Assembly: GCF_020215665.1 (NCBI RefSeq)
Contig: NZ_CP084061.1
Location: 3,766,501-3,830,500, forward strand
Length of the DNA stretch: 64,000 nucleotides
Direction: 5' to 3'
DNA from: Blautia parvula
GTDB taxonomy: Bacteria; Bacillota; Clostridia; Lachnospirales; Lachnospiraceae
Shown here: positions 14,686 to 43,895 of the stretch, in pieces
Position numbering within the stretch: the stretch's first letter is position 1
Layout: each line of letters starts with the position of its first letter
Made by a program: the position numbers and the translations under genes
The notes under the pieces: generated by a model
Told to the model about the DNA's origin: nothing
The model's database searches: none
Seen by the model: the letters and a program-made list of their open reading frames with translations, nothing else

Positions 14686-15192
14686 TTAGTACAGCTTCGC
14701 TCCAGCCGGAATTCTGTCATCAACCATCAAAAGATTCAGTCCTTCGTGTCCATCCACTTCATGTACTGCGGAGATCAACATACCGCAGGAATCAATGCCC
14801 ATCATGGGTCTCGGAGGCAGATTTGTGATTGCGATACAGGTCTTTCCCACCAGTTCTTCCGGCTCATAATACTCGTGAATACCGCTTAAAATCACGCGGT
14901 CCACACCTGTTCCGTCATCCAGAACAAATTTCAGAAGTTTCTTACTCTTCTTCACTGCTTCACATTCTTTTACCTTTACTGCACGAAAATCCGACTTGGC
15001 AAAGGTATCAAAATCAACCATCTCTTCAAACAGCGGTTCGATCTTTACATTGGAGAAATCAATCTTTTCTGCCACTTTTTCCTCTGCCGCAACAGCCTTT
15101 TCCACTGCCTTTTCAGCCTTCACTTCGCCCTTCTTAGCGTCTAAAGACTTCATGGTCGGGAAAAGTTTTCCCACCAACTTACATGCCATCAT
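14686..15192 (-). CDS. metG: C-terminal tRNA-binding domain of methionyl-tRNA synthetase (truncated)
   Basis: 168 codons encode a linker rich in Lys/Glu/Ala, then an EMAP/Trbp111-type OB-fold (FAKSDFRAVKVKECE... to DDRIPAGAKLY). This is the usual C-terminal domain of clostridial MetG, which binds tRNA and drives dimerisation. The ~450-residue catalytic part with HIGH and KMSKS motifs is missing. An in-frame stop lies just upstream, and the integrase end of the mobile element begins within about 140 bases. This suggests the element is inserted into metG, or carries a replacement 3' end. A stand-alone tRNA-binding protein is the alternative. Confidence 0.7.
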   Translation of the reverse strand: MMACKLVGKLFPTMKSLDAKKGEVKAEKAVEKAVAAEEKVAEKIDFSNVKIEPLFEEMVDFDTFAKSDFRAVKVKECEAVKKSKKLLKFVLDDGTGVDRVILSGIHEYYEPEELVGKTCIAITNLPPRPMMGIDSCGMLISAVHEVDGHEGLNLLMVDDRIPAGAKLY

Positions 15193-15331: not shown

Positions 15332-16564
15332 CTAAAAGATGTCCAATTTAGATAAGTTTTCAAAAGATTCCTGCTTCTTTTGATCAGTGGCTTCGGCATA
15401 GATATCCATCGTCGTTTCAATATTCCGATGGCCCATAATTGCCTGAATCACTTTTAAATTTGTTTCATGCTCACAGAGTCTTGTACAAAAGGTATGCCTC
15501 AAGTGATGACAGGAGAAATCTGGAAGAATAATCGGCTCTCGCCGCTCACGCTTAGCATTGATAACCTCTTCCGCATTGTACCCACTGATAATTCGCTTAA
15601 TAGTACGATTCACAGCCTGCGGATTTAAAACTGAGCCAAAACGATTGACAAATACAAAACCCGTCATTCCATCAATCTCGGTCTCGTTGAATCCTGTTTC
15701 TTCCTGCTCCTCGTGCTCCATGTGAAAAGCATCACGTACAATATCAAGCATAGGGATCGTTCTGATACCTGCCTCCGTCTTCGGCTTTGATATCCGCAGA
15801 ACAGACTTTCTCGATTCTCCAACCGGGTAATAAACCAGACTGTGATTAATACTCAGAATCCGATTATCAAAATCAAGATCATCCCATCGAAGTCCCAGTG
15901 CTTCTCCGATTCGGCAGCCAGTTCCAAGCAAAACCGTAAATAACGGCCACCAATGATAATACACTGGGTGATTGGAAATATAGTCCATAAATGCTCGTTG
16001 CTGCTCTCTCGTTAAAGCATGTCTCACGCCTCTTGTCTTATCTGTTTTCTTGCTGACTTCCTTCATGACTCCGTCTGACGGATTTTTCCGAATGATTTCA
16101 TCTCGAACCGCCAATTGGAATGTCGGATGAAGCAGGGTATGAACTGAGTCCAGCGTCCCTAACGATAACTTTTCCTTTTTAAGCAAGTAGCAGTAAAACT
16201 GGAGTACGTCTGAATACTTAGTGCCTGCGATTTTCTTCTTACCGAAAGTATGTCTGACAAAGCGATTATACATGTAATCGTAATTGCTGCGTGTAGTCGC
16301 TCGCAAATCATACTTCGTAGATATATATCGATCATAGGTATCATTTATGGTGGCCTTACCTGCAACATACAGATCCAAACCATCCAATTGATCCTTCATC
16401 AGCTGCTTCTCTTTTTCTCGAAGCGTTGCCAAATCCTGTGCGTATATGGACTTACGCCTGCCCAACGGATCAGTATAGGTGTACATATACCGCTTGTCTG
16501 ATGCCCTCTGTACTTCTCCTTTCCTGAGTGCTCTTCCCCGCTCATCTTTCCGTGTCTTTGCCAT
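15332..16564 (-). CDS. Tyrosine recombinase (Tn916-type integrase)
   Basis: About 410 residues. An N-terminal arm-binding domain (YMYTYTDPLGRRKSIYA) precedes a SAM-like core-binding domain and a catalytic domain with R (GTGCRIGEALGLRWDDL), HxxR (CHHLRHTFCTRL) and the nucleophile Tyr (TTMDIYAEA, about 22 residues from the end). It catalyses integration and excision of the element. The ATG at 16564 was chosen for AAGGAGGTAACAGAC. It lies at the element edge beside metG and downstream of a ribbon-helix-helix gene and an Xis-like gene, the usual int-xis layout. Confidence 0.95.
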   Translation of the reverse strand: MAKTRKDERGRALRKGEVQRASDKRYMYTYTDPLGRRKSIYAQDLATLREKEKQLMKDQLDGLDLYVAGKATINDTYDRYISTKYDLRATTRSNYDYMYNRFVRHTFGKKKIAGTKYSDVLQFYCYLLKKEKLSLGTLDSVHTLLHPTFQLAVRDEIIRKNPSDGVMKEVSKKTDKTRGVRHALTREQQRAFMDYISNHPVYYHWWPLFTVLLGTGCRIGEALGLRWDDLDFDNRILSINHSLVYYPVGESRKSVLRISKPKTEAGIRTIPMLDIVRDAFHMEHEEQEETGFNETEIDGMTGFVFVNRFGSVLNPQAVNRTIKRIISGYNAEEVINAKRERREPIILPDFSCHHLRHTFCTRLCEHETNLKVIQAIMGHRNIETTMDIYAEATDQKKQESFENLSKLDIF

Positions 16565-16606
16565 GTCTGTTACCTCCTTCAATAATGAAGAAGGGACTCA
16601 CAGCAC

Positions 16607-19190: not shown

Positions 19191-20111
19191 TTATCCAAGT
19201 GGACGAAGAGAAAGCGTTTTCCTGCCCAACATTTCATATCCCAGAGCATTCGCATTCGGAGATTCCACAAAATCCGCCTTTGCTACCAGAGGCGAATTAA
19301 TCAGGAAAGGCCTTAAAAGAATACTTCCCCCTCCGATAAAAACTGCCGGATTAGAACGCAAATCCACTTGCAATTCTCTAAGCTGGTTCAGAATATCCTG
19401 TGCATGTAACTTCGTCGCTTCACGAATTGTCTCCTTGACATCCTCCGGCAGAATGGTATTCTCGCACTGAAGCACTGCACTAATATGCTCATCTTCGATA
19501 CGCATATCATGAAGCGCACCAACCTTTCGTATGATTTCATTGTTCATAGTAATAATACCAGTTTCCAGGCTCCGGCAAAACTGCAAATCTGGTTTTCCAT
19601 TCTTCAAGAGCAGCACATCGGTGGTATAACCACCAATATCAACGATAAACATACGAACCGTATGAACCACCAGACTGCTCTGGGGAATAACAGCGGCATA
19701 TGCCTGCGGGAACACCATAACACGGTCTATCTTAATGCTGTATGGCCTGTCACCATAAACAAATTTGATAATTCCGTCTCTTTTGAAATAATTGGCGAAT
19801 CTGTCTTTTAAAGCGCCAAAATGCTCAGGTGGTAGTCCAACAGCCAGCTGAATCTGTTCGACCGGCGTATAATTGCCTCTGTTCTCCAGTTCTTTGGCGA
19901 TTGCAAATAATGTCAAGATGAAATATCGGTCATCCTGGGTTTTATCCCTCATATAACTCAGACGGCGTCCGCTCAAGGTCCAATATTTTCCTCCATACTC
20001 CACAATCTCATCTGTCATGGGCGGCTTCACCGTGTGCTCAGAAAGCCCGGAAATAAAGGAATGGTTTGTGGTCTTTACAGCGTAGTTGCCGTGGTCGATT
20101 GCGATTAACAT
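19191..20111 (-). CDS. parM: ParM/StbA-type actin-like ATPase
   Basis: 306 residues from the ATG at 20111 (AGGAGGTATACAT upstream). The actin-fold phosphate loops are visible: IAIDHGNYAVKT (residues 3-14), VDIGGYTTDVLLL (near 170) and FIGGGSILLRP (near 270). This is the plasmid-type DNA segregation filament. With the downstream ParR it forms a type II partition cassette, and an inverted repeat upstream may be the centromere. Partition genes imply that the excised element persists as a circle at least for a time. Confidence 0.85.
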   Translation of the reverse strand: MLIAIDHGNYAVKTTNHSFISGLSEHTVKPPMTDEIVEYGGKYWTLSGRRLSYMRDKTQDDRYFILTLFAIAKELENRGNYTPVEQIQLAVGLPPEHFGALKDRFANYFKRDGIIKFVYGDRPYSIKIDRVMVFPQAYAAVIPQSSLVVHTVRMFIVDIGGYTTDVLLLKNGKPDLQFCRSLETGIITMNNEIIRKVGALHDMRIEDEHISAVLQCENTILPEDVKETIREATKLHAQDILNQLRELQVDLRSNPAVFIGGGSILLRPFLINSPLVAKADFVESPNANALGYEMLGRKTLSLRPLG

Positions 20112-20163
20112 ATGTATACCTCCTGCAAAAATTATTCTTATATTTATCATTACACGATTCGCC

Positions 20164-20190
20164 ATGCGTATTTACAACTTTTATACGCAT
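20164..20190. promoter_or_regulatory. Inverted repeat upstream of parM (possible parC)
   Basis: ATGCGTAT (20164-20171) and ATACGCAT (20183-20190) are exact complements, flanked by CGATTCG and TCGATTG. It sits about 55 bases before parM, where type II systems keep the centromere/operator. Only one pair is present, fewer repeats than classic parC. Confidence 0.4.
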
Positions 20191-20243: not shown

Positions 20244-21302
20244 TTAATGCTTCTTTTGAAAACAATATTCCCAGATATAATCATCCAGTCCCTTATAGCG
20301 TGGATCCCACAGGTACGTACCGAACTGAAATCCCATATTGCCAAGAAGACTGAGAAGATTGTTGTAACCGTTTTGTACATGGTAATTGGTCGCAAAATCC
20401 ATATCAAAAGCAGTCTTAATCTCTGCAACCCCTTCTGCACGTAAATCGCTAAGGGTTGTTTCAAGCTGTGTCAGAGAATTAACACCAGGAACCGCCAGCA
20501 CTGTCAGACCAGTCAGTGCATGAATCACGTCAGCTTTCATAGGACCTTCTGTCAGCACCAGCATAGGCCTAACCGGGCCTGCAAGATGTGTCCATCCTTC
20601 TGCAGGGCAACCATCCGGCCGCTCTGTACTGGATACCCATCGAAATTTTCTCTTTTTCACCTTATCTCTGCGTATCTGAAGCCCCTGAATTCTTCCTTTC
20701 CGATCTCTCATTGGAATTAAGATACCGCGTTCTTCATGAATGAAAGTCCATGTACCGCTTTCATTCCTGTAAAAACCAGGAACCCCAGCTAAGTACATCC
20801 CTTCGGACTGAAGTTTGCCGGCAATCGCTGTCATACCGACCACAGGTGTTGTCCTGTATCCAAGCCGAATAATGTCATCCTCCATCAACCCTCTGCCAAG
20901 CAGGTTCTCTTTATGGTCTGCCGCCAGCGTCAGCTTATCGAGCAGCGCACTGTATGTGGCATGTCGGGTATCAACATCCGTTATTGGGCATTCAGGCTTT
21001 GCCTGCGGCTGTATCCTCTTTTGGGGTTTAGGCCGGTTATCAGGCATTCCCAGTTTCTCCACCAGAGCTTTTCGCACTTTGTCACGCGGAACCCCGGTAT
21101 ATAATGAGTACAGATCAAATATACCACCAGATATTCCGCACCGCGGGCAGCGATACACTTCTTTTTTCAAATTGATGTTCAAATGCTTTTTCCGTGGGTT
21201 TTCGTCACAGCAGGGACACTGCACATAATAGGAGCTTCTTCCAGACGGCGGCATCGGGATTCCCAGCAGCGAAACAACGTCGCTCATATGAAATATTTCC
21301 AT
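20244..21302 (-). CDS. DNA primase (CHC2 zinc finger + Toprim)
   Basis: 352 residues. An N-terminal CHC2-type zinc finger (VQCPCCDENPRKKH, then YRCPRCGISGG, residues 28-60) is followed by a Toprim-like core with LVLTEGPMKADVIHAL and LAVPGVNS near 240-265, as in DUF3854/TOPRIM plasmid primases. It makes RNA primers for the element's own replication. It is the last gene of a long operon from ~25 kb with RecD2, annealing protein and others. GGAAAGGAGGCAGC gives a strong start. Confidence 0.85.
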   Translation of the reverse strand: MEIFHMSDVVSLLGIPMPPSGRSSYYVQCPCCDENPRKKHLNINLKKEVYRCPRCGISGGIFDLYSLYTGVPRDKVRKALVEKLGMPDNRPKPQKRIQPQAKPECPITDVDTRHATYSALLDKLTLAADHKENLLGRGLMEDDIIRLGYRTTPVVGMTAIAGKLQSEGMYLAGVPGFYRNESGTWTFIHEERGILIPMRDRKGRIQGLQIRRDKVKKRKFRWVSSTERPDGCPAEGWTHLAGPVRPMLVLTEGPMKADVIHALTGLTVLAVPGVNSLTQLETTLSDLRAEGVAEIKTAFDMDFATNYHVQNGYNNLLSLLGNMGFQFGTYLWDPRYKGLDDYIWEYCFQKKH

Positions 21303-23055: not shown

Positions 23056-25227
23056 TCAAGCAAGCGCCTGCAGCCGCTTAGCAAGGCAGGTGCCGCGTTT
23101 TTCTGTGTCAGTTCTTTTAATGGAAATACAAAGCGCCCTTTTTTCCCCGACAATGGTTACACGCTCTTTTCCTCGTGTAATTGCCGTATAGATAAGAGGC
23201 CTCGTCAGCATGATGGAATGGGCGCATTGCAGATTGATGATGACGGACTGGTACTCCGCTCCCTGTGATTTATGGATAGTAGAGGCATAACCTAAATCCA
23301 ACATATCCAATTCACTGGAATCGTACTCTTTCATGCGCCCGTCACCAAAGTCCACATGAACCGTAGTGTCATCGCCAATGCGAATAATTTTTCTGACATA
23401 CCCGATATCACCGTTATTGACATCATCATGGTTTTTGATCTGCATGACCTTGTCCCCACACCGAAATTTCCGGTTTCCGAAAACAACTTCCGGTTTCTGC
23501 GTATCCGGAGGGTTCACCTTCTCACGCAAACACTCATTCAGTGCATTGACTCCGGTTTCCGTCTTCTGCCGGTATGGCGTAAGCAGCGCCACATTATCGA
23601 CCCCGTATTCTTTCGTTTCCTGCAGATAAAGATCGACAATGAGTTCAGCAGAATCAGAAAGCCTGGGAGAATTGATAAACTGAAAGTCATTCCCATACTC
23701 CAGGCCCACATTCCCATGGCGGATCAGCTTCGCATTTGTCGCAATGCGGCTTCCCGCATTCTGGCGAAATACCTTGTCCAACCGTACAACTGGGATACAT
23801 CCGCTGGCAATCATCTCACTGAGCACTGCGCCAGGTCCCACTGAAGGCAGCTGATCTGCATCGCCAATCAGCACCATCTGGGCGCCATATTTCACTGCAT
23901 CAAACAGATATTCAGCCAGATAAACATCCAGCATGGAAATCTCATCTACCACAATCAGATCTGCAGTAAGCGCTTCGGGTCCATCATAGTCTCCGTCCTC
24001 ATCCGCCATCAGCCCAAGGGCTTTATGAACAGTTGAAGCCGAAACACCAGTTGCCTGCTCCATCCTCCTTGCTGCCCTACCCGTAGGGGCACAACAGCAG
24101 ATTTCACTTTTGGGATTGTTTTTTTGATAAATATCTAAAATGGCACGTTGTATCAAAGTCTTTCCTGTTCCAGGTCCACCAGTGATAATGGAAAGCCCCT
24201 GCGTCAGAGCCATCTTTACCGCTTCGCGCTGCTCCAGTGCAAACTTCATTTTCAGCTTCTGCTCCTCTGCATCTATGGCAGCATCCAAATCCCCATAGCT
24301 GTGCATCTTCCGGTACTTCATTTGCTGATGAATGGCGGAGGCAAGCTGTTCTTCCACATGTGCGGTCTTTGCCCTATACACATTGCCCTGGTACGACACC
24401 AACTGTCCGCCGAAAACCAGCCTGGCGGCACGGTTCGCCACCATTTCTGCTGTTAACGCAGGCGTATCCAGAATTTTTAGGCAGGCTTTCACAAACTCAT
24501 GTTTCTCCATGCAGAGATGACCTTTGGCTTCCGCATCCTCCAGCGTATACAAGAGTCCTTCATCCACACGCTCTGTCGATAGCCGGTCAAACCCCATGCT
24601 CATAGCGATATGGTCTGCCGTCTTGAAACCAATCCCGGCCATGTCGCAGAGCTGATAGGGATGATTTTTTACAATATCCATCGTCTTTTCCCCATACTCC
24701 TTATACAGGCGTACCGCTCGGTTCGGCGTAATGCCATGTGGTGACAGAAACGCCACCACATCCCGGGCGCCACGATTGACCAGATAGGAATCATAGATTT
24801 TTTTCAGTTTTATCTCACTGATACCCGGTATGGCAAGGAGCCTTTCCGGTTCTTTATCCAGTATCTCCAGTGACTGCTGACCAAAAGCTGCGTAAATTTT
24901 CTCCGCTATTTTTGGACCAATCCCTTTAATCTGCCCGGAAGAAAGATAGGCAATAATGCCTTCCTTCGTCGGTATTATCACTTCGTTATAACTCTCCACT
25001 TCAAACTGGATGCCAAATTTGGGATTTTTACTCCAATGCCCAAACATGTCGTAGCGCAGGTTGCTCGATATAGGTAAGCAATATCCCACTGCCTTCACCT
25101 GTGTAACCGTGTTCCCTGTGCTATCTTTGATCTTTTCGCATGGGTTGTAGAGCGCAATCATATAACTGCTGGCATCAACAGCCGTAATACTTTGTGGATA
25201 TATGAGCCTATCAAATTCACATAGCAA
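23056..25227 (-). CDS. RecD2-type SF1B DNA helicase
   Basis: 723 residues: N-terminal OB-like part, helix-hairpin-helix repeats (GIGPKIAEKI near 102; IPGISEIKLKKI near 133), Walker A GGPGTGKT (about 350-357), Walker B VVDEISMLD, motif III GDADQLPSVGPG, and a C-terminal UvrD-like domain with AITRGKERVTIVGEK. This is the RecD2/TraA helicase architecture, a 5'-3' DNA helicase. It heads the operon running down to primase, behind a terminator at 25265-25308, and likely acts in element replication or recombination. Confidence 0.9.
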   Translation of the reverse strand: MLCEFDRLIYPQSITAVDASSYMIALYNPCEKIKDSTGNTVTQVKAVGYCLPISSNLRYDMFGHWSKNPKFGIQFEVESYNEVIIPTKEGIIAYLSSGQIKGIGPKIAEKIYAAFGQQSLEILDKEPERLLAIPGISEIKLKKIYDSYLVNRGARDVVAFLSPHGITPNRAVRLYKEYGEKTMDIVKNHPYQLCDMAGIGFKTADHIAMSMGFDRLSTERVDEGLLYTLEDAEAKGHLCMEKHEFVKACLKILDTPALTAEMVANRAARLVFGGQLVSYQGNVYRAKTAHVEEQLASAIHQQMKYRKMHSYGDLDAAIDAEEQKLKMKFALEQREAVKMALTQGLSIITGGPGTGKTLIQRAILDIYQKNNPKSEICCCAPTGRAARRMEQATGVSASTVHKALGLMADEDGDYDGPEALTADLIVVDEISMLDVYLAEYLFDAVKYGAQMVLIGDADQLPSVGPGAVLSEMIASGCIPVVRLDKVFRQNAGSRIATNAKLIRHGNVGLEYGNDFQFINSPRLSDSAELIVDLYLQETKEYGVDNVALLTPYRQKTETGVNALNECLREKVNPPDTQKPEVVFGNRKFRCGDKVMQIKNHDDVNNGDIGYVRKIIRIGDDTTVHVDFGDGRMKEYDSSELDMLDLGYASTIHKSQGAEYQSVIINLQCAHSIMLTRPLIYTAITRGKERVTIVGEKRALCISIKRTDTEKRGTCLAKRLQALA

Positions 25228-25870: not shown

Positions 25871-26908
25871 CTAAATTGGCTGGACCGACACCTTTACCTT
25901 GCGGCTTTCCGATGCTTTTAGAACATCAGTATAAATTGCCGGGTATTTTTCCTTCAAGGCTTTGGAATCGGGCCTGCGGGTTGTTTTTGTCACGAAATCA
26001 ATCAAAAGCTTATCGCTGGTCGTTTCCAAGACGCCATGCTCATGCTCCTTCATGACTTCGGCAATTCGCACACTATGTGCTTCAATCTCCTTTTCATATG
26101 TTTTGATTTCTCTGTTGCATTCAGAGATCTTCCCTTGAAGCATTGCGATTCTGCGCAAGGGCGATTCATACTTGCGGGAAAACTCTATTGTTGGAAGTCC
26201 CGCCTGACTTGCACCATAAATCCTTGCCAGTGACTCCAAAGCAAGCTTTGGTGCAACATCCGCCATTGTCGGGGGTTTATCATTCTCAAGGCTCCAGATC
26301 CATTCGTCCAGGCGTTCAAAAATCATATCCTCCTTCGCCTTATCACGAATAATCTCAGGCATTGCCAGATCATTGTCCGGATTATTTCCCCAAACGGCAG
26401 AAAAAGCGCCAATGTTCACATCCGCTACCGCAAGATAAAACCTCAGCTGCATTTCATAGTAGAGCGGAATCGCTCCATCTGCCCACTCATCCGCTTTGTG
26501 ATAAGTACAGCTTTTACACTCCAAAATTCCCGGTTCGTTATCGGACGCCCGTGTAAAGCGCCGGTCGAAATTGGCAAGAGCATAAGAATGATCTGCGTGC
26601 TGATATAGATTCGTGTCTTCCATAACGGTGTTGCCTGTCTTTGCACCATACCAATAGGCAGCAATCGGCTCCAAAAGATGACCCATCTGCAATTGATTGG
26701 CATTGGCTTTTTTTGCAGGCTTCATTTGCCCTTTTTTGATTTTCCACAGCTCCAGCGGAGTCGTCCATGGTGATACACCAAAAATAGCTGCAACATCGCT
26801 ACCGCCCACTGTATAGGGAATATCCCCTTTGGGGCCGTGCATACGGCATTCCAGCCATCTGTCATTCGTCATACCTGCGGTATCACAAAGAATAATTGGT
26901 TTTGCCAT
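25871..26908 (-). CDS. YqaJ-family recombination exonuclease
   Basis: 345 residues with a PD-(D/E)XK nuclease core: GGSDVAAIFGVSPWTTPLEL (residues 31-50), GHLLEPIAAYWY, ILECKSCTYHKADEW (the E-x-K pair), and YYEMQLRFYLAV. This is the YqaJ/lambda-exonuclease family that resects DNA ends for single-strand annealing. The C-terminal ~110 residues are coiled-coil-like (MLQGKISECNREIKTYEKEI). It pairs logically with the Rad52-like protein at 21826. Its ATG overlaps the stop of the DUF932 gene. Confidence 0.88.
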   Translation of the reverse strand: MAKPIILCDTAGMTNDRWLECRMHGPKGDIPYTVGGSDVAAIFGVSPWTTPLELWKIKKGQMKPAKKANANQLQMGHLLEPIAAYWYGAKTGNTVMEDTNLYQHADHSYALANFDRRFTRASDNEPGILECKSCTYHKADEWADGAIPLYYEMQLRFYLAVADVNIGAFSAVWGNNPDNDLAMPEIIRDKAKEDMIFERLDEWIWSLENDKPPTMADVAPKLALESLARIYGASQAGLPTIEFSRKYESPLRRIAMLQGKISECNREIKTYEKEIEAHSVRIAEVMKEHEHGVLETTSDKLLIDFVTKTTRRPDSKALKEKYPAIYTDVLKASESRKVKVSVQPI

Positions 26909-30351: not shown

Positions 30352-31284
30352 CTATGCTGCGCTTCTGTTCAAAGACCACATTCCCCTGCCATCATGAAAG
30401 AAGTATGTAGGATTGATCTGAAGCGTTTGGCGGATTTTTTCTTTCCACCACTTATTTGCCTGTGCTTTTCTGTGCGGCTCTATTTTCTCATAGAGAAACG
30501 TGAGCGTCACCGGCTCGCTGCACTGTTCTAAAACGGCAGCAACCACATCACGCCATGTCGCTCCCGGCATATCCCGGATATCGACCTCCGCTTTCTTTGC
30601 CATAATAATCGGAACCAGAAGCGGTGAATCCTTTCGGACAATCATCACATATTCATGCAGAATCGGAATGAATTTTCCGCTATACTGGATCTTGTCTGAA
30701 AAGCAGTTATGCTGGGCCTTGATAATGATATTCTCCAAGGAACCCGGCTTGATGATTTCAGAAAGCATACTGTAAAGCACACCTTTTTTCTTAATGTCTC
30801 CCATCAAAACCGCCATCCTGCCTCCTTTTTCAAGGGCGGAAAACTGCTTCATCATGGCATAATTCATTTTATCAACAAAGCTTTCCCAGTCCGGTATGCG
30901 CGACAGATCATACTGTCTCGGGTCATAACCGTAGTTCTTTTGGACATCAGAAGCTTTATACATGACATCCGAAAACGTGACGATATCCCAATATGGAGGA
31001 TGCCAGAAGATGAACTCCGGACGCTCCGGGATTTCACAGTTCATGATATCAAATCCGCTGTGCAGATCATACAGATGACTGCCAATGCCCAATTTGTCCG
31101 CCGCTGCTTTGGTCGTCCCGCTGCCACACATGTAGTCACAGATTTCTCCCGGGCGAAAGAACCCTAAAAGATCCTCAATCAGTCTGGGAGAGCAGTTCCC
31201 CCGATAACGGTTATTGCCGCCTTCGCCACGCTCCGGATAGGAGACAATGCTGGTCAACGGCCTTGATTCGCTTTTATAAGGCAT
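30352..31284 (-). CDS. DNA methyltransferase-like protein with HPPY motif
   Basis: 310 residues. The order is a motif X-like RYRGNCSPRLIEDLL, the AdoMet motif I DYMCGSGTT (near 50-58), and the catalytic motif IV IFWHPPYWD (near 92-100), as in N6-adenine or N4-cytosine methylases. The first motif IV residue is His instead of Asp, Asn or Ser, which is unusual. The last 80 residues look like a winged helix (LTFLYEKIEPHRKAQANKWW). No restriction partner is nearby, so it may protect or mark the element. Confidence 0.75.
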   Translation of the reverse strand: MPYKSESRPLTSIVSYPERGEGGNNRYRGNCSPRLIEDLLGFFRPGEICDYMCGSGTTKAAADKLGIGSHLYDLHSGFDIMNCEIPERPEFIFWHPPYWDIVTFSDVMYKASDVQKNYGYDPRQYDLSRIPDWESFVDKMNYAMMKQFSALEKGGRMAVLMGDIKKKGVLYSMLSEIIKPGSLENIIIKAQHNCFSDKIQYSGKFIPILHEYVMIVRKDSPLLVPIIMAKKAEVDIRDMPGATWRDVVAAVLEQCSEPVTLTFLYEKIEPHRKAQANKWWKEKIRQTLQINPTYFFHDGRGMWSLNRSAA

Positions 31285-34408: not shown

Positions 34409-34484
34409 AATTCCCTTCCTTTCTGAATAACAGGCGGGCAGCTGTAGAAATCCAGCTGCCCGTCGTATTTTTATAATTTGATGT

Positions 34485-34540
34485 TGTTATACCCTCACAT
34501 GCTGCTTAATAGCAGCGGTCAGTTTTGTGGGCAGTTGGTT
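34485..34540. repeat. Duplicated 3' end of the VWA gene (56 bp)
   Basis: 34485-34540 matches 35772-35827, the last 17 codons plus stop of the VWA gene, at roughly 50 of 56 positions. Read on the minus strand it still encodes QLPTKLTAAIKQHVRV and a stop. It lies 31 bases after the CbbX-like gene, so that gene is flanked by direct copies. It reads as a remnant of a tandem duplication or of insertion of the CbbX gene. Confidence 0.75.
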
Positions 34541-34570: not shown

Positions 34571-35680
34571 TCAGGCCGTCAAATAATGAATATTGCATTC
34601 CGTTGCTCGGACAATGGAGAGATATTCCGGCACCAGTCTTTTCGTTTCTTCCCGTGTCGATGTCCCATAATAATCCGTGTAATTCAGCGTGATACAGTCT
34701 GCCGGAAGAATCGTCGCATGACGCTCAGTGTCATAGACACATTCAGAGGGCATAAACTCAGCCATGACCAGGTTTCTACCTTTATCGTCGAACAGACTGA
34801 CACTCTCATGGCAGTCCCTGTTGAACAGATCTAACTGGCACCTTTTGGCGCTCATGGTGACTCCACCGCTGAAATGCAGAGTGATGTTGTACAACTCCTC
34901 ATGCATGTTGATGATATTGATGTCCAGTATTGCCGCTTCAAACGGAATCCCAAGGCTAAGTTCAAACGCTATCGCACGGAGGCAGTCATAATTCAAAGCC
35001 ACTTTCTTCGAGAACAGGATTACCTTCTCAATCTCGCCGTGGCACCGAGCCTCTAACTTATCGGTCAGATATTCCCTGATATCTTCCGAAGACGGGTAAT
35101 CAAAGCGGAAATGATAGTGGAAACGACCTGGGCGATTCACCAGATAATCGCTTAGATTGTACAGGCTGTTGCATGTGATAATGAACAGCTTTTTTCCGTC
35201 AGATGTTCCGTCAAACAGGCTCAAAAGCCCAGACTGCGGATCTGCTTCATTTTCTCCTGGCCGGATACTGCCAAAGGTCTTGTCGAACTCGTCAAACAAG
35301 ATGACAGCCTCCTGGTCGATGGACTCAATATAGGAAGCGATACCCGGGATGAACTGGTCAACAATAATGACAGGATACCCGGTCTTAACCGCCTTTGAGG
35401 AAAGGACTCTGGCAAAAAGCGACTTGCCAATACCTTTGTCTCCACTTAGGATGACACCAAGATTCCGTTCAAACATTGCAAATGCCGCAATGACTTTGTC
35501 TGCCTTTTCCGGATGGACTCCGTAGACCTTCTCCTTCACCACCAAGTCCGTCCGTGCTTCCAGAAAAAAGCCGGACATCTTTGAGAAACGGACCGTGTAA
35601 GTCTTTGCAGGGAGCCTGTCGTAGGCCTTGAGTGAATCATCATAAATCTCATATTTCGCACCAATACTTATAGCTTTCAT
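34571..35680 (-). CDS. CbbX/Rubisco-activase-like AAA+ ATPase
   Basis: 369 residues: Walker A LSGDKGIGKSLFA (78-90), Walker B VILFDEFDKTFG (near 127), sensor and arginine-finger region NRPGRFHYHFRFDYPS. This is an AAA+ chaperone-type ATPase with extra C-terminal beta structure (LHFSGGVTMSAKR). It is transcribed from the same direction as the HExxH/VWA gene, 93 bases after it, and likely acts with it. No Rubisco genes are present, so the client is unknown. Confidence 0.8.
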   Translation of the reverse strand: MKAISIGAKYEIYDDSLKAYDRLPAKTYTVRFSKMSGFFLEARTDLVVKEKVYGVHPEKADKVIAAFAMFERNLGVILSGDKGIGKSLFARVLSSKAVKTGYPVIIVDQFIPGIASYIESIDQEAVILFDEFDKTFGSIRPGENEADPQSGLLSLFDGTSDGKKLFIITCNSLYNLSDYLVNRPGRFHYHFRFDYPSSEDIREYLTDKLEARCHGEIEKVILFSKKVALNYDCLRAIAFELSLGIPFEAAILDINIINMHEELYNITLHFSGGVTMSAKRCQLDLFNRDCHESVSLFDDKGRNLVMAEFMPSECVYDTERHATILPADCITLNYTDYYGTSTREETKRLVPEYLSIVRATECNIHYLTA

Positions 35681-35773
35681 ATTATTGTTAACGCTCCTTC
35701 TTTATTTTTATTTCTTTCTATTGTTATGAATTACGCAGGGCAAAGCGGATTTCATCCTTTGTCCTGCCTTTTG

Positions 35774-38044
35774 TTATACCCTCACGTACCGCTTAACAAC
35801 AGCGGTCAGTTTTGTGGGCAGTTGGTTTAAGTCTGAGATATCCAGGAATGAGTCCCCATAGATTCTCTCAATATTCTGCTTATCATCACCAATAGCGGCT
35901 GCAACAAACAAGATACCTTTGCGTTGATACTCCTGCTTGATGCCGCGAAGATCCTCCTCAGCTGCAGAACCACCATAACCGCTGTCAGCAGGCTGTCCGT
36001 CTGAAACCAGTATGAGGATTTTTACTGCTTCCGGCCGCTTAGACAGCTGCTCCGCTACAAAACGGAGTGCGGCTCCGTCACGGTTGCTTCCTCTGGCCGC
36101 AATATCCATCATGCGGTATTTATCATCATGATCAAAGCCATCAAATTCCGCATAGGAATATAGTGCTACTGTATTTCCGACATCGGTATAATCGGTGGAA
36201 TGACCATAGACCATTACCGGGATGTCCAGGCTCTGGCAGAAATCATACAGAATAATAGCTGAGGCTCTGGCATAAGTACAGCGATCACAGGAACACATAG
36301 ACCCTGACTCATCCAGAAGCAGGCCGACTGCCAGCTCCGGAATCTCATTGGGCAGGTTGTTCTTATAAAACACCTTACCGTCATTCCTGCACAGTGCGTG
36401 CACATCCAAACGGCGGCCCATGATAAGACCGGTCAGCTTGCCGCCTCTTCGATTTTCCTTGAGCTGCTTCTGCAAACTCTTCTGCAGCTGGCGGGAAATA
36501 TTGATCAAAGGTCCCGCAATAGCATTATACTGTTCTATAAGCTCCTCATCCACAGAGGCAATCCGATTGATTCGGATAGGTACCCCTTCATGGATATTCC
36601 CATAAGAAATATTCTGAGCCACATCATTCAACTCCTGAATCCTTTCATTCTCCAATTGCTCGCAGACCGCTTTTTCCGCCATCTTGTCCAGAAGACGTTC
36701 GATATCGGATGCAGCACGATCATACTGCTCCCGCTCATAATCGTCGTTTCTTTCTATTGACCCACCAACAGGTTCTGAAAGTGATTCTGACTGGTGGTAG
36801 GGGATGCGTCCCTGCTCAGTATCCGCAGTTTCCTGTTTCTCAGCACCGGAACTGCCACCATCTATAGGGGCAGTTTCTTTATCTGAAGAATTATTGCTTC
36901 CCCCAGACCCAGATGGCTTTTCTTCCGTTTCAGAGTCAGTCTGGAAGCCCTCTGTTTCTCTTGAGTCATCCTCGCTCTCGGCGTCTGCATGAGTCTGTGC
37001 CCGTTTGCCGGCCGTCGCAGATTCTTCTGACCCGTCGGATGCTTCCGGCACCGGCGTGCTGCTTCCTTCACCAATTTCGGAACCGCCGGCAATTGCGCCC
37101 AACACTTCCGACAAGGTTTCTGCAAGGCTGGCGGAACCTCCGGAGGTTATAGCCTCTTCCTGACGTTTTTTGCATTCTTCACAAAATGATTCGATATAGT
37201 CCCAGCACCTTACCAGTACCATATTGACGACATTCAGCCGGTCTTTTCCGGACCTGCTCATTAAGGCGCTGTCAATATCGGTAATTAAACCGAACACCGC
37301 CTGAATTCTTTCATCGCTGAGCGGTTCGTCCCCATACTTGATTTCGCCAAATTTTGCATAAGACAGCATGATCTGAAGAATGCTTTCAAAAATATGACTT
37401 TCTTCATCCTCCTGCTCGATCAGCTGCGTCACGGTCAGTATTTGCTCGAAATGCCGCTCCCGCAGCTTTTCAAGCCCGTATCCCAGTGTACCTGGGAAAT
37501 TGTTCAGCACCCGGTTTTCAATATACCCATCCTCAATTACATTGGAGATATAATGGGCAATCATCTGCACCATCTCCAGATTTCTTGGATCGGTTCTCAC
37601 ATAATTCCAGAATGCTTTCTCGTTCCGTGCATCCGCCGTTGTCTTCAGGTCTGGCGGATAGGGATACCAGCGACCGCTTCCTAAATAATTGGCATGTGTC
37701 TGTGCTGCAAGAAAATCTGTATAAAGGACATGTCCCAGCTCATGAGCGAACATACCGCATACGATCTGGTAGCGGTTTTCCCTCCCCTTTACCTTCGTGA
37801 CCATAGGATACCCGGCATTGATACGCACAAACATATTGTCCGTTGATGCCACATGCTTTTCTCTCGGTTTCCAGTAAAGATTCACACGGACCCGTCGGTT
37901 ATAGTGATACCGCCTTGTCTGTGCTGCCGCCAGATCTTCAAAATGTCCCGCCAAAAGACGGGACGAGAAGAATTGTCGGTCTGAAATTTTACTGCGCTGC
38001 TCATTGAGCCGCTGTTTTACTAACTTGTGATTCACCCTCGCCAT
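35774..38044 (-). CDS. HExxH metallopeptidase-like plus VWA domain protein (CobT/DUF2201-like)
   Basis: 756 residues. The N-terminal part carries FAHELGHVLYTDF (HExxH at 101-105), then a helical region, an acidic Ser/Gly-rich linker (about 300-440), and a C-terminal von Willebrand A domain whose MIDAS motif is DESGSMCS (near 578) with D at VSDGQP. The VWA part resembles CobT; the HExxH+VWA combination recalls DUF2201 proteins, which pair with MoxR ATPases. The MoxR/CobS-like partner is encoded 28 bases upstream. No cobalt chelatase genes are nearby, so the target is unknown. Confidence 0.82.
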   Translation of the reverse strand: MARVNHKLVKQRLNEQRSKISDRQFFSSRLLAGHFEDLAAAQTRRYHYNRRVRVNLYWKPREKHVASTDNMFVRINAGYPMVTKVKGRENRYQIVCGMFAHELGHVLYTDFLAAQTHANYLGSGRWYPYPPDLKTTADARNEKAFWNYVRTDPRNLEMVQMIAHYISNVIEDGYIENRVLNNFPGTLGYGLEKLRERHFEQILTVTQLIEQEDEESHIFESILQIMLSYAKFGEIKYGDEPLSDERIQAVFGLITDIDSALMSRSGKDRLNVVNMVLVRCWDYIESFCEECKKRQEEAITSGGSASLAETLSEVLGAIAGGSEIGEGSSTPVPEASDGSEESATAGKRAQTHADAESEDDSRETEGFQTDSETEEKPSGSGGSNNSSDKETAPIDGGSSGAEKQETADTEQGRIPYHQSESLSEPVGGSIERNDDYEREQYDRAASDIERLLDKMAEKAVCEQLENERIQELNDVAQNISYGNIHEGVPIRINRIASVDEELIEQYNAIAGPLINISRQLQKSLQKQLKENRRGGKLTGLIMGRRLDVHALCRNDGKVFYKNNLPNEIPELAVGLLLDESGSMCSCDRCTYARASAIILYDFCQSLDIPVMVYGHSTDYTDVGNTVALYSYAEFDGFDHDDKYRMMDIAARGSNRDGAALRFVAEQLSKRPEAVKILILVSDGQPADSGYGGSAAEEDLRGIKQEYQRKGILFVAAAIGDDKQNIERIYGDSFLDISDLNQLPTKLTAVVKRYVRV

Positions 38045-38072
38045 ACAGGGTTGACCTCCTTTCTAAATACAT

Positions 38073-39947
38073 TTATGCGGTTGCTCTCTTTCGCTTCTTT
38101 GTAAAAATCGGTTCCAAAACTGCACTGATCAGCGCCTCACGGTCTACTTCATCTGTGGTCGCCTTGCTGATGATCGTATACAGCGCCGACTCATATACAT
38201 CGCCGGTAATCTCACTGCTCACAATCCAGTCAATCAGGCTGCGCATACCATAGGAGCCGTCCGTAATACTGTTCTTTCGGCAATACTCCGACAGGTCGTT
38301 GACCACCTGCACCATCTGGGAGATCTGGTACTCATCGGTTGCGCCCGTGACGGCCATGGCGCGCTGCACCATAACTTCAGGCGTCGGAAGTTCCACATCT
38401 CGTACCAGACTCATTCTGTCGATAACAGACTGGTTCATACTGCGGCATCCCTCATATCCGATATTAGTCGTCACTACGACCACCGCATCCGGATGACGCT
38501 CTATCACCTCTCCGGTAGGAAGAGTGATTGTCCCGGTCTGCTCCAGCAGAGAATTCAGTCCTGGCAAAACGCCGGGCTGGACAATTGTCGTAGGCTCCTG
38601 GATCTCAATGACATACCCATACTTCAGAGCCTTGATAAAATCAGTCTCAATATAAGTATAGGTTTGACCACTGCTCTTGGAATTTTCATCTCGTCTGGAC
38701 AGGGCACACACCTTCTCCGTTACACGATCCAGCACAATGCTCATACAGTCCTGGGATGTTGCGGCTGCATTTTCTACACCAGTCAGAGCCTGATATACCC
38801 CCGCCGGATCATAATCCATATCATCCAAATCGGGCAGATTCATCATTTTGGATACGTTGGCATAGTTGATTCCACCCATACTCGCCAAAATCGCTTTTTC
38901 ATGATCAAGCTGTGCATCCCCGGTAGAACCCGAATCGGTATCCGGAAAAATCTGACCGATGAAGTCAAATATTTCTGTGCCTGCCGAGCAGGTGTATGCC
39001 ATATACGGAAGCCCCAGCCCTGCTGCAATCGCTTTTGCGCTTCTGGTCTTTCCGGTTCCCGACGGGCCACGGAGGAGGAAATTCCTCATCTGCGTCGGTT
39101 TCCCGGTGGTTGCCTGAGCATGTTTGCAGATATCAACGACCTCCTGTGGAATGATGTACCATTCCGGAAGCACCGGTATCAGCTGTTTTTCCTGACTGCT
39201 CATCGTCCTTGGATGCAGTTCATACTTGCCGACAAAATCCGTGTGTTCCACAATGACATCTGCGCTCTTCACAATAACCCTCGCTGTTTTTGCAAAGATC
39301 GTAAATTCCCCAGCAATCACATGGGTAGGCTCAAAAGCGCCGGAATCCAGCTGCACCTGAGATACACGCATCAGATTTCCGGCCTTGTCCACACTCACCT
39401 TGACGGCTGCTGAACAGGAGGCATCTTTGATGCGTCTGTAGGCGTTATCACATAGCATTGCCATGTACTCCGTAGCCGAGGATAAATCCGAAAATCCATG
39501 ACTAAACTGATCGCGGTATAATTCAAAATTATCACTGAATTCCTCATCATTCATAAGTACCGGAAACAGTGCCATCATAACGGCAGCTCCGTCACGCCCT
39601 GATGCGTTTAGCACATAGTTTTCAAAAACTTCCGTGTTCTTGTCATACACACTTGCCATTAGCGAACCAGAGTTGCTGTCATATACTACCAGATGATACT
39701 CATCAGGTCCCATGGACGATTTGTATTCAGCAACTGTCCTGTGGTCGATGACTCCGACAGCTCCTTCGGCGCTGCCATCCATGCAGCGGCAAACTGCATG
39801 TACCGCCTTTATGACTGTTGAACACAAAGTTGCATTTGTCCCATCTCCATATTTCGATGATACTGACACCTTTTTGTTCGTCAACGTATCAAACGGTTCC
39901 GGTAAGGGACGGCTGTAATTAAAGATGTTGTTCATGTATGCACTCAT
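38073..39947 (-). CDS. MoxR/CobS-like AAA+ ATPase
   Basis: 624 residues. A ~260-residue N-terminal beta-rich domain of unknown type precedes the AAA+ core: Walker A RGPSGTGKTRSAKA (292-305), Walker B-like IEIQEP near 440, sensor TTNIGYEGCR near 502 and arginine-finger DRMSLVRDVELP. Such ATPases remodel targets together with VWA proteins, like MoxR or CobS with CobT. The VWA gene follows by 28 bases. AGAAAGGAAATAACGT gives the start. Confidence 0.85.
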   Translation of the reverse strand: MSAYMNNIFNYSRPLPEPFDTLTNKKVSVSSKYGDGTNATLCSTVIKAVHAVCRCMDGSAEGAVGVIDHRTVAEYKSSMGPDEYHLVVYDSNSGSLMASVYDKNTEVFENYVLNASGRDGAAVMMALFPVLMNDEEFSDNFELYRDQFSHGFSDLSSATEYMAMLCDNAYRRIKDASCSAAVKVSVDKAGNLMRVSQVQLDSGAFEPTHVIAGEFTIFAKTARVIVKSADVIVEHTDFVGKYELHPRTMSSQEKQLIPVLPEWYIIPQEVVDICKHAQATTGKPTQMRNFLLRGPSGTGKTRSAKAIAAGLGLPYMAYTCSAGTEIFDFIGQIFPDTDSGSTGDAQLDHEKAILASMGGINYANVSKMMNLPDLDDMDYDPAGVYQALTGVENAAATSQDCMSIVLDRVTEKVCALSRRDENSKSSGQTYTYIETDFIKALKYGYVIEIQEPTTIVQPGVLPGLNSLLEQTGTITLPTGEVIERHPDAVVVVTTNIGYEGCRSMNQSVIDRMSLVRDVELPTPEVMVQRAMAVTGATDEYQISQMVQVVNDLSEYCRKNSITDGSYGMRSLIDWIVSSEITGDVYESALYTIISKATTDEVDREALISAVLEPIFTKKRKRATA

Positions 39948-39950
39948 ACG

Positions 39951-40706
39951 TTATTTCCTTTCTGCATTTGACTGCGTAAGATTGATTTTGATTCCCTCAG
40001 ATACACACTGGACATCCGTAAGCCCGGCTCTTATCAGTTCCTGGCAGATATCTGCCCAACTCTCCCGGACCGGAAGTTCTTCCGCGAGCAAAATCAATTC
40101 TGAGAGATTTTCCCCAATTGCTTCATTACATCTGGCATTCAGCTCGAAAATATGAGCATCTGCCCACTCAAAGGCCAGCAACTCGTAATTTTGTACCTCT
40201 GGTTCTTCTTCAGGTTCCGGGGCATTATCCTCCGGCTCCAAAACCGCATCCTCCTCAGCCGGCGGATTGTACTCAATTCCAACCACCTGCAGGTTTTGGA
40301 TCACGACTCTGGCACGGCGGTATCCGCCGGCACGGTTCAGCAGGATGAATACCTCCTGGTTTTCCCGGATGAGCCTTTCGGCATTCGGCGCCTCCCAGAT
40401 CCATCTTGCTTCCGGATACTCAGATAGCACAAGTTCTGTAACCCGTCTGAGTATGACGGAATATGCAAGCACCTGTACATCTTTCTCGGTCGCTTCTTTT
40501 ACCGGCTCCGGCAAAAGAGGAAGTGGTACAATTACTTCAATCTTTCTGGAGGAAAGAAAAAGCAGTCTTATCACCGCTGCAAAAATACCGAGAATAATCA
40601 ATAACAGGATGGGCCATAGCCGGCATATAAAAGTGAGCAAAGCCAGCATACCTAACAGCACCAGCGCTTCATAAGCCATGTGCCTTTTTTGATCTTTCTT
40701 ATTCAT
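39951..40706 (-). CDS. Membrane-anchored protein of the AAA/VWA module
   Basis: About 251 residues. Two hydrophobic segments near the N-terminus (residues ~15-50) form a hairpin or double anchor; the rest is soluble, with an Asp/Glu/Pro-rich linker near 150-170. The stop lies 3 bases before the MoxR-like gene, so the two are surely cotranscribed. It could tether the ATPase-VWA complex to the membrane. Start at the ATG 40706 or the GTG at 40709. Family not recognised. Confidence 0.6.
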   Translation of the reverse strand: MNKKDQKRHMAYEALVLLGMLALLTFICRLWPILLLIILGIFAAVIRLLFLSSRKIEVIVPLPLLPEPVKEATEKDVQVLAYSVILRRVTELVLSEYPEARWIWEAPNAERLIRENQEVFILLNRAGGYRRARVVIQNLQVVGIEYNPPAEEDAVLEPEDNAPEPEEEPEVQNYELLAFEWADAHIFELNARCNEAIGENLSELILLAEELPVRESWADICQELIRAGLTDVQCVSEGIKINLTQSNAERK

Positions 40707-41086
40707 CACTCTGTTCCTTTCTGACTTCGTTCCTTTGGAATAAAGATATAGAGGCAGTTTGCATTACTGCAATCAACAGTATTATGCAAAATTACTGCCG
40801 CCGCCTGCGATGAGTCAAATTGTTTTCCCGGTATTTCTCCAATACCTGCGGCTACATGACCAAGAATGGTTCTTCTTTGGAACCCGTCCGCCGCTGACAA
40901 AACACGGCAAAACTCCTCCCCATCTCGATAGACTGAAATAGCATACTGTCTGTTCAGGGAAATGCTCATCAAGATACTATGAAGTTCTTCTTCATTCAGA
41001 CATCCTTTTGTCTTGCCCTTCATTGTAGCCTTGAATTTTGTGTGTTTCTCCTCCTCAGAGAGAAGGCAAAAGGTTTCATTTGTCAT
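40706..41086 (-). CDS. Hypothetical protein, 126 aa
   Basis: Start at 41086 (AAAGGAGGTGTCTT). An alpha/beta protein with LNEEELHSILMSISLNRQYA, FCRVLSAADGF and CSNANCLYIFIP. It overlaps the membrane-protein start and opens the AAA/VWA operon. Not recognised. Confidence 0.55.
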   Translation of the reverse strand: MTNETFCLLSEEEKHTKFKATMKGKTKGCLNEEELHSILMSISLNRQYAISVYRDGEEFCRVLSAADGFQRRTILGHVAAGIGEIPGKQFDSSQAAAVILHNTVDCSNANCLYIFIPKERSQKGTE

Positions 41087-41105
41087 AAGACACCTCCTTT
41101 GAAAC

Positions 41106-41154
41106 GCAAAAAGGCGCACATGAGCATACAGTGTCTGTAACTCATGTGCGCCTT
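41106..41154 (-). terminator. Terminator between ssb and the AAA/VWA operon
   Basis: AAGGCGCACATGAG (41111-41124) pairs exactly with CTCATGTGCGCCTT (41141-41154); the minus-strand transcript continues TTTTTG. It ends the ssb transcript and lies just before the next gene's ribosome site, so read-through could also be regulated. Confidence 0.88.
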
Positions 41155-41182: not shown

Positions 41183-41695
41183 TCAATTCTCATCAAAGAA
41201 TGATCCGCCGCCAAATGCCTCATACCCGGTAAAATTTCCGGATGCTTCAGCGCCTGTCGCAGGAGTTGAAGCAGCATTTTGCGGAGCAGTATTCTGAGGA
41301 GCAGTATTCTGGGGAGCCGCATTCTGCTGTCCTGCAGCTGCCTGGTTTTCCTTGGACTTGCCTCCACCGGAAGCATACTCAATGTCATCCAGAATAATAA
41401 CCATCATTTTTCTGGTTTCTTTGGTATCCTTATCTTCCCAGGAATCTTCGTCCAGCCTGCCAATCAGATTCACAAAGGAACCCTCTTTCAGCTGCATCTT
41501 CTTGATGCGCTCGCATACGCCGTTAAACGCTTTGACCGGAAGGTTAATCCAGCGGCTGTCGTTTTCAGCATGAGGGTCATAGACCTTCTTGCCGATTCGG
41601 AACCTCACAGAATCACCATTCTCAGAAAAGCGAAGAGCTGGCGTGTTGTCATAACCTTTGGATACGACGACTTGTGTTGCAAAAACTTTTAACAT
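41183..41695 (-). CDS. ssb: Single-stranded DNA-binding protein
   Basis: 170 residues: an OB-fold (FATQVVVSKGYDNTPALRF, then RWINLPVKAFNGVCERIKKM and GSFVNLIGRLDE) followed by a Gln/Asn/Ala/Pro linker with repeats (QNTAP) and an acidic tip GSFFDEN that takes the place of the usual DDDIPF. It protects element single strands in replication and conjugation. Its leader has the conserved promoter and terminator pair described at 41782-41901. Confidence 0.9.
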   Translation of the reverse strand: MLKVFATQVVVSKGYDNTPALRFSENGDSVRFRIGKKVYDPHAENDSRWINLPVKAFNGVCERIKKMQLKEGSFVNLIGRLDEDSWEDKDTKETRKMMVIILDDIEYASGGGKSKENQAAAGQQNAAPQNTAPQNTAPQNAASTPATGAEASGNFTGYEAFGGGSFFDEN

Positions 41696-43663: not shown

Positions 43664-43804
43664 CGGCATTTCCTATGCCACTTTTGTGCCATTTTATCTG
43701 CCATACCACGCCAATGAAGTTCTTCACTACGCAATCTCACTACATGGCCATTATCAAAGCATAAACCGCATTGGTCGCGGACAATCATAAAAAAAGCATA
43801 TTTC

Positions 43805-43895
43805 TATCTAAACAAGATAATAAATATCTACCCTATCCAACATTATATCTTGTTTCAGTATAAAATCAATAGACGCGATAAAAAATATCTAAATA
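43805..43895. promoter_or_regulatory. Repeated TATCT boxes before the XRE gene
   Basis: TATCTAAACAAGATA (43805-43819) is an inverted repeat; related words TATCTTG (near 43846) and ATATCTAAATAAGA (near 43888) follow before the regulator at 43921. They look like multiple operator sites for that regulator. The 43565-43920 gap holds these boxes and the divergent leader, and no further gene. Confidence 0.5.

Follow-up and report, generated by a model that had tools for sequence, protein, structure and literature searches.

Several described systems join a MoxR-class AAA+ ATPase to a protein with a VWA domain; the papers on them are cited here by PMC number. In NorQD a finger of the VWA protein is placed in the ATPase ring, where rotation stretches a linker (PMC9976466, PMC13036017). 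MoxR and vWA proteins also form the core of conflict systems (PMC7159879), and cobST genes of tailed viruses were proposed to aid vitamin B12 synthesis (PMC8651126). In group 2.2 jumbo phages a MoxR ATPase occurs with a vWA partner bearing an N-terminal metallopeptidase domain, and a role in virion assembly was proposed (PMC7824862). Here we describe a related gene trio, encoding a membrane protein (MP), a CobS-like ATPase and a CobT-like HExxH-VWA protein, in a stretch of 64,000 nucleotides from Blautia parvula (NCBI RefSeq assembly GCF_020215665.1, contig NZ_CP084061.1, positions 3,766,501 to 3,830,500). This whole stretch is called the window, and coordinates refer to it unless stated otherwise. 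The trio is backbone of a large family of integrative and conjugative elements (ICEs), found mostly in Clostridia to judge by record titles, and the element has its own type IV secretion system (T4SS).

An earlier note, made from the sequence of the window, knew of no described function for this arrangement. The MoxR and metallopeptidase-vWA pair had already been reported in jumbo phages (PMC7824862); a pair of the same description is found here in an ICE backbone, with MP and the SSB in fixed order, and its ATPase carries a large additional N-terminal domain. In the open-licence PMC literature no match joined MoxR and VWA with ICEs, or with a metalloprotease on mobile genetic elements, and nothing pertinent on CobT/CobS of conjugative elements or phage-plasmids was among the matches listed; for ICEs at lysS a Streptococcus paper was listed. 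The reading we favour, with somewhat less than even confidence, is that the trio acts as an ATP-driven remodelling protease in establishment or replication of the element DNA, with host proteins as the likeliest targets.

A conserved block of MP, CobS-like and CobT-like genes

All three genes are located on the minus strand. MP (MP252; 39951..40709) is separated by 3 bp from the CobS-like gene (38073..39947), which is followed after 28 bp by the CobT-like gene (35774..38044); a further ATPase gene, AAA369 (34571..35680, minus strand), begins 93 bp beyond it. Purine-rich runs precede the starts of the MP, CobS-like and CobT-like genes. Pfam assigned AAA_5 to the CobS-like protein, CobT_C/VWA to the CobT-like protein and AAA to AAA369. 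MP gave no Pfam match; it has a single N-terminal hydrophobic stretch (residues 10-57, Kyte-Doolittle window) and a soluble domain. All four open reading frames (ORFs) described in the earlier note exist on this strand, and the AAA and VWA domains, the metal ion-dependent adhesion site (MIDAS) and the HExxH motif were confirmed in them. Its picture of a mobile element that carries a MoxR-VWA pair, with a site resembling that of a protease and with a membrane protein as partner, stands. The span it gave, 34571-40706, covers real genes but stops short of the start of MP at 40709.

In 84,980 species genomes of bacteria and archaea a pattern-seeded scan found 194 CobT-like relatives, 80 of which were retrieved as loci; with three loci from IMG/VR the set comprises 83. 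Figures count loci, not independent events, as near-identical loci are among them (e.g. L001/L079, L002/L119 and L094-L096). Where at least 4.5 kb of upstream sequence was present (n=57), the CobS-like gene was found in every locus (57/57), MP in 54/57 and the SSB (41183..41695 in the window, minus strand, PF00436) in 53/57. The order SSB-MP-CobS-CobT on a single strand was seen in each of the 60 loci where all four genes were found. MP and the CobS-like and CobT-like genes form a conserved operon-like block, the backbone of a large ICE family in gut Clostridia. Co-occurrence and gene order in other elements, which the earlier note had suggested as a check, are conserved for these three genes. 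That the machine consists of the three genes, without the fourth ATPase gene, is well supported.

The CobS-like gene is in two pieces in seven loci. An Rfam check found both ends of a group II intron in six of these (G009 at L034:2559-5253, L071, L072, L083, L109 and L110); for the seventh, L144, group II intron ends were not among the Rfam findings. The introns reside at three conserved places of the CobS-like sequence, after about residue 328, near residue 455 beside Walker B, and near residue 508 in an invariant NQS...R stretch. Homing introns favour conserved sites in genes whose expression is needed, and we read their placement as a sign of selection on the CobS-like gene.

The CobS-like protein (624 aa) has an N-terminal domain (about residues 1-235) and a MoxR/NorQ-CbbQ-class AAA+ part (about residues 250-616). 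Its Walker A motif GPSGTGKT (residues 294-301; 39045..39068, minus strand) has a counterpart in 63/63 near-full CobS-like proteins. Walker B is the non-canonical EIQEP (residues 448-452; 38592..38606, minus strand), and the pattern E-x-Q-E-P, with E448, Q450, E451 and P452 invariant, was present in 29/29 CobS-like sequences. The AlphaFold model (mean pLDDT 80.7) had its best structural match in CbbQ2 (6l1q_A; VIA-align Z 24.3 over 263 residues, rmsd 2.6). Ten NorQ/CbbQ entries matched at Z 21.0-24.3 (229-263 residues), followed by the next AAA+ entry at Z 15.8; the structural matches cover residues 236-620 only. The protein is a MoxR/NorQ-class AAA+ ATPase with an extra N-terminal domain.

The CobT-like protein (756 aa) is composed of an N-terminal HExxH domain (about residues 6-316) that is joined via a variable linker to a C-terminal, NorD-type VWA domain with a MIDAS. 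In matches of its model against the PDB the matching stretch, residues 508-756, was filled throughout by the VWA domain, and the half comprising residues 428-755 superposed on the NorD VWA domain at VIA-align Z 22.9 (247 residues, rmsd 3.7). The AAA+ part and the VWA part both have their best structural matches in the NorQ-NorD/CbbQ systems. The trio differs from these by the HExxH domain and the MP partner, and no Nor or Rubisco gene is present among the family-assigned genes of the window.

The HExxH motif (HELGH, residues 101-105; 37730..37744, minus strand) was found in 76/77 near-full-length CobT-like proteins, the exception (L117) being truncated and beginning at residue 109. MIDAS (DESGS, residues 578-582; 36299..36313, minus strand) was present in 77/77, and an EDxxxE-type motif downstream of HExxH matched by pattern in 73/77. 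In an alignment of 40 sequences with a mean column identity of 54%, residues G97, H101, E102, H105, D172 and E176 were invariant, as were D578, S580 and S582 of the MIDAS, and E171 was conserved in at least 90%. Given these invariant residues at that mean identity, and the retention in 76/77 proteins, the HExxH motif is conserved above chance. The AlphaFold model (mean pLDDT 73.2) scored 83-94 in ten-residue blocks across residues 51-300; it predicts HExxH inside a helix of residues 88-108 and the acidic motif inside a second helix, residues 153-182. HExxH together with a conserved downstream acidic residue fits the signature of gluzincin-like metallopeptidases, with E171, D172 or E176 as candidate ligand. 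A non-zinc fold of this region, which according to the earlier note would have refuted its proposal, did not emerge, as the motif lies in a confidently predicted domain of the model.

As judged from its conservation, HExxH makes cleavage by this predicted peptidase domain likely; we infer both the proteolysis and its target. The HExxH domain might instead be catalytically idle, so that the complex would be a pure remodelling chaperone like NorQD. A genuine CobT, three other VWA proteins of related genomes (L016, L017 and L020), the CobT-like protein of an Acinetobacter plasmid and fused forms all occur without HExxH, so that this motif is not needed for a VWA arm to work; remodelling is moreover the function described for MoxR-VWA pairs (PMC13036017, PMC9976466). 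Nevertheless, none of the 40 aligned sequences departs from H101, E102 or H105, HExxH is kept in 76 of 77 proteins, and idle sites are seldom retained so strictly. We regard an idle site as quite unlikely and retain the remodelling protease as the preferred reading.

The integrative and conjugative element

In the genome to which the window belongs (G000) the lysS gene is split, with a 500-codon part at contig position 4,073,542 (L164:8539-10041) and the C-terminal part at contig position 3,781,189 (14686-15192 in the window). It is a single open frame of 656-676 codons in the related genomes G001, G004 and G005, and of 647 codons in G007 (with one TAA in the listed match). Both flanks of G000 align to the contiguous lysS of G007, leaving about 72 bp, and a 15-nt repeat (14/15) is located at the junctions; its copy at 15148..15162, a putative attL, is common with the far junction at L164:8554-8568. 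As the split lysS flanks match one contiguous gene, the ICE is an insert of approximately 292 kb in G000. The same reasoning gave about 156 kb in G009; the G000 unit is enlarged by nested elements. One ICE end is marked by a Tn916-type tyrosine integrase (15332..16582, minus strand, PF00589/PF02920). In the G000 unit the trio lies near this integrase end and the coupling protein near the opposite end, about 252 kb from the trio.

The lysS gene seems to be interrupted in G008 as well, and its C-terminal part seems to be duplicated in G010; elements may integrate preferentially into lysS. The ICE itself harbours, at window coordinates of about 72-96 kb (L052-L054), a nested element that by eye resembles Tn916 and has what by eye is an Erm-type methylase gene.

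T4SS genes were located upstream of the trio, on the same strand and contig, in Acutalibacter sp. 1XD8-36 (G106), Lachnospiraceae CE91-St56 (G104), G007 and G008. They encode a coupling protein (PF02534), a VirB4-like ATPase (PF19044/PF12846) and an NlpC/P60 protein, with homologues in order, and a VirB6-like protein was recognized by eye. In G106 the trio is followed by homologues of h380 (a 380-aa protein, see below), YqaJ, RecD2, primase and ParM. The G009-homologous stretch round the trio held no T4SS genes, and a search for the coupling protein located the T4SS elsewhere in the element.

Among 98 related genomes, searched for a trio-type CobT (E ≤1e-40) and the coupling protein (E ≤1e-60), the coupling protein was present in 10/10 genomes with trio-type CobT, the window's included, versus 5/88 genomes without it (Fisher p 2e-10, kinship not corrected). 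A genome with a fused CobS-VWA gene (G095, E 8e-58) and genomes with weaker VWA matches were scored as lacking the trio. In addition, the identities of CobS and of the coupling protein to those of the window co-vary (Pearson 0.93, Spearman 0.83) in 14 hand-picked pairs. These pairs omit the window itself and G106:C21 with its partial CobS; two-piece CobS proteins were averaged (G009, G101b, G103b and G101c), and G107 was paired across contigs with C130 (57%) and not with C77 (44%).

A transfer-related role, one of the possibilities raised by the earlier note, gained ground from the ICE backbone position and from the distribution of the coupling protein. In its specific form the trio would assemble or activate the transfer machine in the donor, as a membrane-linked chaperone-protease that processes subunits of the T4SS or of surface adhesins. 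This would suit the link to the coupling protein across the family and the presence of MP in the block, and a virion-assembly role has been proposed for the vWA-metallopeptidase pair of jumbo phages (PMC7824862). Nevertheless, the trio is placed beside the SSB and replication genes; in the 13 pairs listed that share a contig, 24-197 kb separate it from the coupling protein, and in none of the four elements inspected is it part of the run of T4SS genes. The pair occurs in phages as well, which are not known to possess a T4SS. We consider a role in the transfer machine fairly unlikely and keep to a function of the remodelling protease in establishment or replication.

The surroundings of the trio consist of the SSB upstream and, downstream and all on the minus strand, a YqaJ recombinase/exonuclease domain protein (25871..26908), a RecD2 helicase (23056..25227), a DnaG-like primase (20244..21302; TIGR01391, E=1.5e-8, 34 bits, below the curated cut-off of 283.6) and a ParM/Alp-like actin (19191..20165, PF17989). 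NCBIfam named only the primase and an S1-domain protein among ten unnamed element proteins, both below curated cut-offs. Plasmid leading regions are enriched in SSBs, methylases, toxin-antitoxin and anti-defence genes, and their islands are often bounded by umuCD homologues (PMC11541004). In G008 a DinB/UmuC-like gene separates an SSB-like gene from the T4SS side; the names of these two genes were given by eye.

With these neighbours, the trio could remodel replication or partition complexes of the element itself, for example by unloading an initiator, a helicase or the SSB, and leave host proteins alone. Besides SSB, RecD2, YqaJ, primase and ParM, the setting of related pairs agrees with such a role: in Vibrio phage ICP2 genes for primase, helicase and DNA polymerase follow a few genes after the pair, and a topoisomerase gene adjoins the pair in plasmid pB6464. 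Nevertheless, no replication partner was common to all carriers in the neighbourhoods inspected, for which no systematic search was made. We give this explanation the same low probability as a role in the transfer machine, these two being the chief rivals of our reading, and host proteins remain the targets that we prefer for the remodelling protease.

Two further features were seen in this part of the element. A 137-aa ORF between SSB and MP (40706..41119, minus strand) is found in part of the family only. An NAD-ligase-like gene, named by eye and with a C-terminal BRCT domain by Pfam in the window, is present as two ORFs in G009 (L034:15515-17505) and as one in G099.

Phage structural genes are common in the carriers, portal PF04860 being present in 8/12 genomes and HK97-type capsid PF05065 in 6/12. 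None was found within 100 kb of the CobS-like gene on the same contig in 12/12 genomes, or inside the G000 and G009 units; other capsid families were not searched, and several proteins of the backbone match no family. Pattern-seeded scans of 2.9 million IMG/VR contigs led to three loci. A viral identity of the element in the window was rejected, given these three loci among 2.9 million contigs and the portal and capsid families not being near the trio. The phage-deposited record L025 and the IMG/VR virus contigs L001-L003 resemble fragments of the ICE family, and part of the entries for 'viral cobT' may thus have another origin than viruses.

AAA369 and the variable cargo interval

The earlier note had joined AAA369 to the trio in a four-gene machine with two motors. 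This was rejected, as AAA369 was present in only 7/58 loci with at least 4 kb of downstream sequence (8/83 loci overall), its distance from the CobT-like gene varies (its start is 1.9-3.4 kb away in three of the eight loci), and it is bracketed by repeats. In the window two copies of a 57-nt direct repeat flank the AAA369 cassette, one overlapping the 3' end of the CobT-like gene (35771..35827) and one beyond AAA369 (34484..34540; 91% identity to the former). The gene is missing from G009. Its site falls within the interval between the CobT-like gene and h380, which spans 0.3-9.8 kb across 51 loci and contains a relative of the window's DNA methylase gene (N6_N4_Mtase; 30352..31284, minus strand), a frequent cargo, in 27 of them. 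AAA369 is unrelated cargo.

Nor did its matches bear out the assignment of AAA369 as CbbX-like. It matches PF00004, phrog_2376 (348 bits) and chains of the Afg2/p97 type; CbbX appeared neither among the NCBIfam matches nor among the PDB matches listed (60 of 74; Afg2/p97/proteasome types). Over residues 1-300, approximately, it shares 51-54% identity with the Enterococcus phage proteins listed for phrog_2376, an ATPase of Enterococcus Herelleviridae, and it is 59% identical to a gut-phage record. In contrast to AAA369, the gene in phage EFDG1 belongs to a tRNA cluster, and none of the genes in the 11 kb inspected is annotated as VWA or MoxR.

The protein h380 (26908-28050) usually adjoins YqaJ and is conserved at about 57-79% in most loci. 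It matched no Pfam or NCBIfam family and is possibly an annealing protein. Farther upstream of the trio, a cargo of about 13 kb (43757-57125) that is missing from G009 comprises genes for a histidine kinase, ABC transporters, MerR regulators, an acetyltransferase and a TrmO-like protein.

Defence-like cargo (AbiEii) is also found nearby, and the earlier note had counted defence among the plausible roles. The trio would then be an ICE-borne anti-phage system related to the MoxR-vWA ternary conflict systems, of which MoxR and vWA proteins form the core (PMC7159879). As to the third component of such systems (VMAP, iSTAND, FtsH or a beta-propeller), PADLOC gave no match for the CobT-like protein or MP and only weak AAA-motif matches for the ATPases, no dedicated VMAP model being applied; furthermore, the trio is a near-constant backbone and not a variable island, and phages themselves carry the pair. 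Anti-phage defence therefore appears improbable to us as compared with the remodelling protease.

Relatives and possible role of the trio

A HExxH-VWA gene adjoining a CobS/MoxR-like gene was found in Vibrio phage ICP2, Tsukamurella phage TIN4, Roseobacter phage CRP-810 and the plasmids pB6464 and pRUMAL01. The sequence HExxHVLYTDF of the window recurs in Bacteroides phage BS162P1, next to a 400-aa P-loop ORF. The phage 'cobST' genes (ICP2 gp41/42, TIN4 and CRP-810) share this adjoining pair with the trio and differ from it in that no named SSB-MP neighbours occur in the stretches inspected; identity over the VWA domain is 27-28%. In a viral Foldseek search the CobT-like model had near-full-length matches to phage 'CobT' models with rmsd >20, which suggests a shared architecture, and nothing beyond this is claimed. 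HExxH was also present in the VWA proteins L013 and L015 of related genomes. A tblastn search with ICP2 gp41 matched 757 plasmid records, 682 of them from Klebsiella, Escherichia or Acinetobacter; HExxH was present in 0/2 of those inspected.

Single-ORF fusions of a CobS-like AAA part and a VWA part without HExxH were observed at L024:13831-16059, on an Enterococcus faecium plasmid, and at L012:364-2412. In E. faecium the neighbour of the fused ORF is a DUF6530 gene, and in G095 it is a gene similar to this one.

With its VWA domain the CobT-like protein matches CobT_C, as does cobaltochelatase CobT, and for phage cobST a boost of vitamin B12 synthesis by such chelatase subunits has been put forward (PMC8651126). 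The absence of a chelatase partner, noted earlier for the window, extends to the hosts: CobN/BchH (PF02514) was found in 0/13 carrier genomes and by the same search in 5/14 control genomes, which argues that the trio is not a cobaltochelatase. The CobT equivalog model gave 17.4 bits on the CobT-like protein versus a cut-off of 759.05, and the genuine CobT of a Sphingomonas plasmid lacks HExxH. Cobaltochelatase subunits are thus a very improbable identity. The CRP-810 CobT-like protein combines HExxH with a match to PF06213, the family of CobT N-terminal domains (57.5 bits, cut-off 26.1), and this argues that the N-terminal domain of chelatase CobT is homologous to an HExxH domain.

For the remodelling protease we propose a mechanism by analogy with NorQD. 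A hexamer of the CobS-like ATPase would drive the VWA domain of a CobT-like monomer; by turning this arm, the ring would pull on the HExxH domain via the linker and move it relative to the motor. A bound target might be pulled open and cut, or merely remodelled, while MP would tether the complex to the membrane. Its action would be timed to the element DNA entering or replicating in the cell, where host proteins that hinder establishment, such as restriction, nuclease, SOS or replisome factors, could be removed or remodelled by it. A role in establishment or replication is suggested because survival and replication of incoming DNA is a need common to phages, plasmids and ICEs, whereas capsids are not shared with these ICEs within the scope of the search, phages are not known for a T4SS, and these hosts have no CobN. 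The occurrence of CobS-like and VWA parts in one ORF on the E. faecium plasmid was counted for a joint machine.

Several findings weigh against this proposal. The coupling protein occurs without the trio in the five genomes G006, G016, G018, G075 and G097, and G105 (C1) breaks the co-variation of identities, with 71% versus 46%. No PF03432 relaxase was found inside the 292-kb unit of the window, other relaxase families not being searched, and one partial PF03432 match is located about 13 kb outside the G009 element. The oriT was likewise not found; with neither oriT nor relaxase at hand, 'leading region' is an analogy for the setting of the trio. In Walker B the position of the Asp is occupied by Gln, although the catalytic Glu is kept, so that the ATPase may behave unusually; at the apparent Walker B place relatives have D-E (phages, genuine CobS and one plasmid) or E-E (two plasmids). 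Residues 1-295 of the CobT-like protein matched no Pfam family even at E 10. Finally, HExxH is missing from some mobile relatives, namely the pair on an Acinetobacter plasmid and both fused forms.

A broader claim, which we hold possible but on balance doubtful, is that of an unnamed class of AAA+ proteases with a MoxR ring and a VWA-MIDAS arm, by which phages, plasmids and ICEs dismantle host proteins on arrival of their DNA. CobT, and perhaps NorD, would be its protease-dead descendants, and 'cobST' would be a misnomer for the phage genes.

The HExxH-VWA/MoxR architecture is a near-constant part of an ICE backbone, in hosts without CobN (13/13) and with no PF04860 or PF05065 near it (12/12). 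A general role as vitamin B12 helper or in virion assembly is argued against by these ICE hosts, which lack CobN and nearby portal or HK97-type capsid genes. One shared function, an ATP-driven HExxH-VWA complex that aids the survival of incoming DNA, can now be tested. If the broader claim is true, phage 'cobST' genes, which have been counted as auxiliary metabolic genes for vitamin B12, would be misnamed. An origin of the helpers of chelatase and NorD type from such complexes, by loss of the protease site, likewise becomes a testable proposal.

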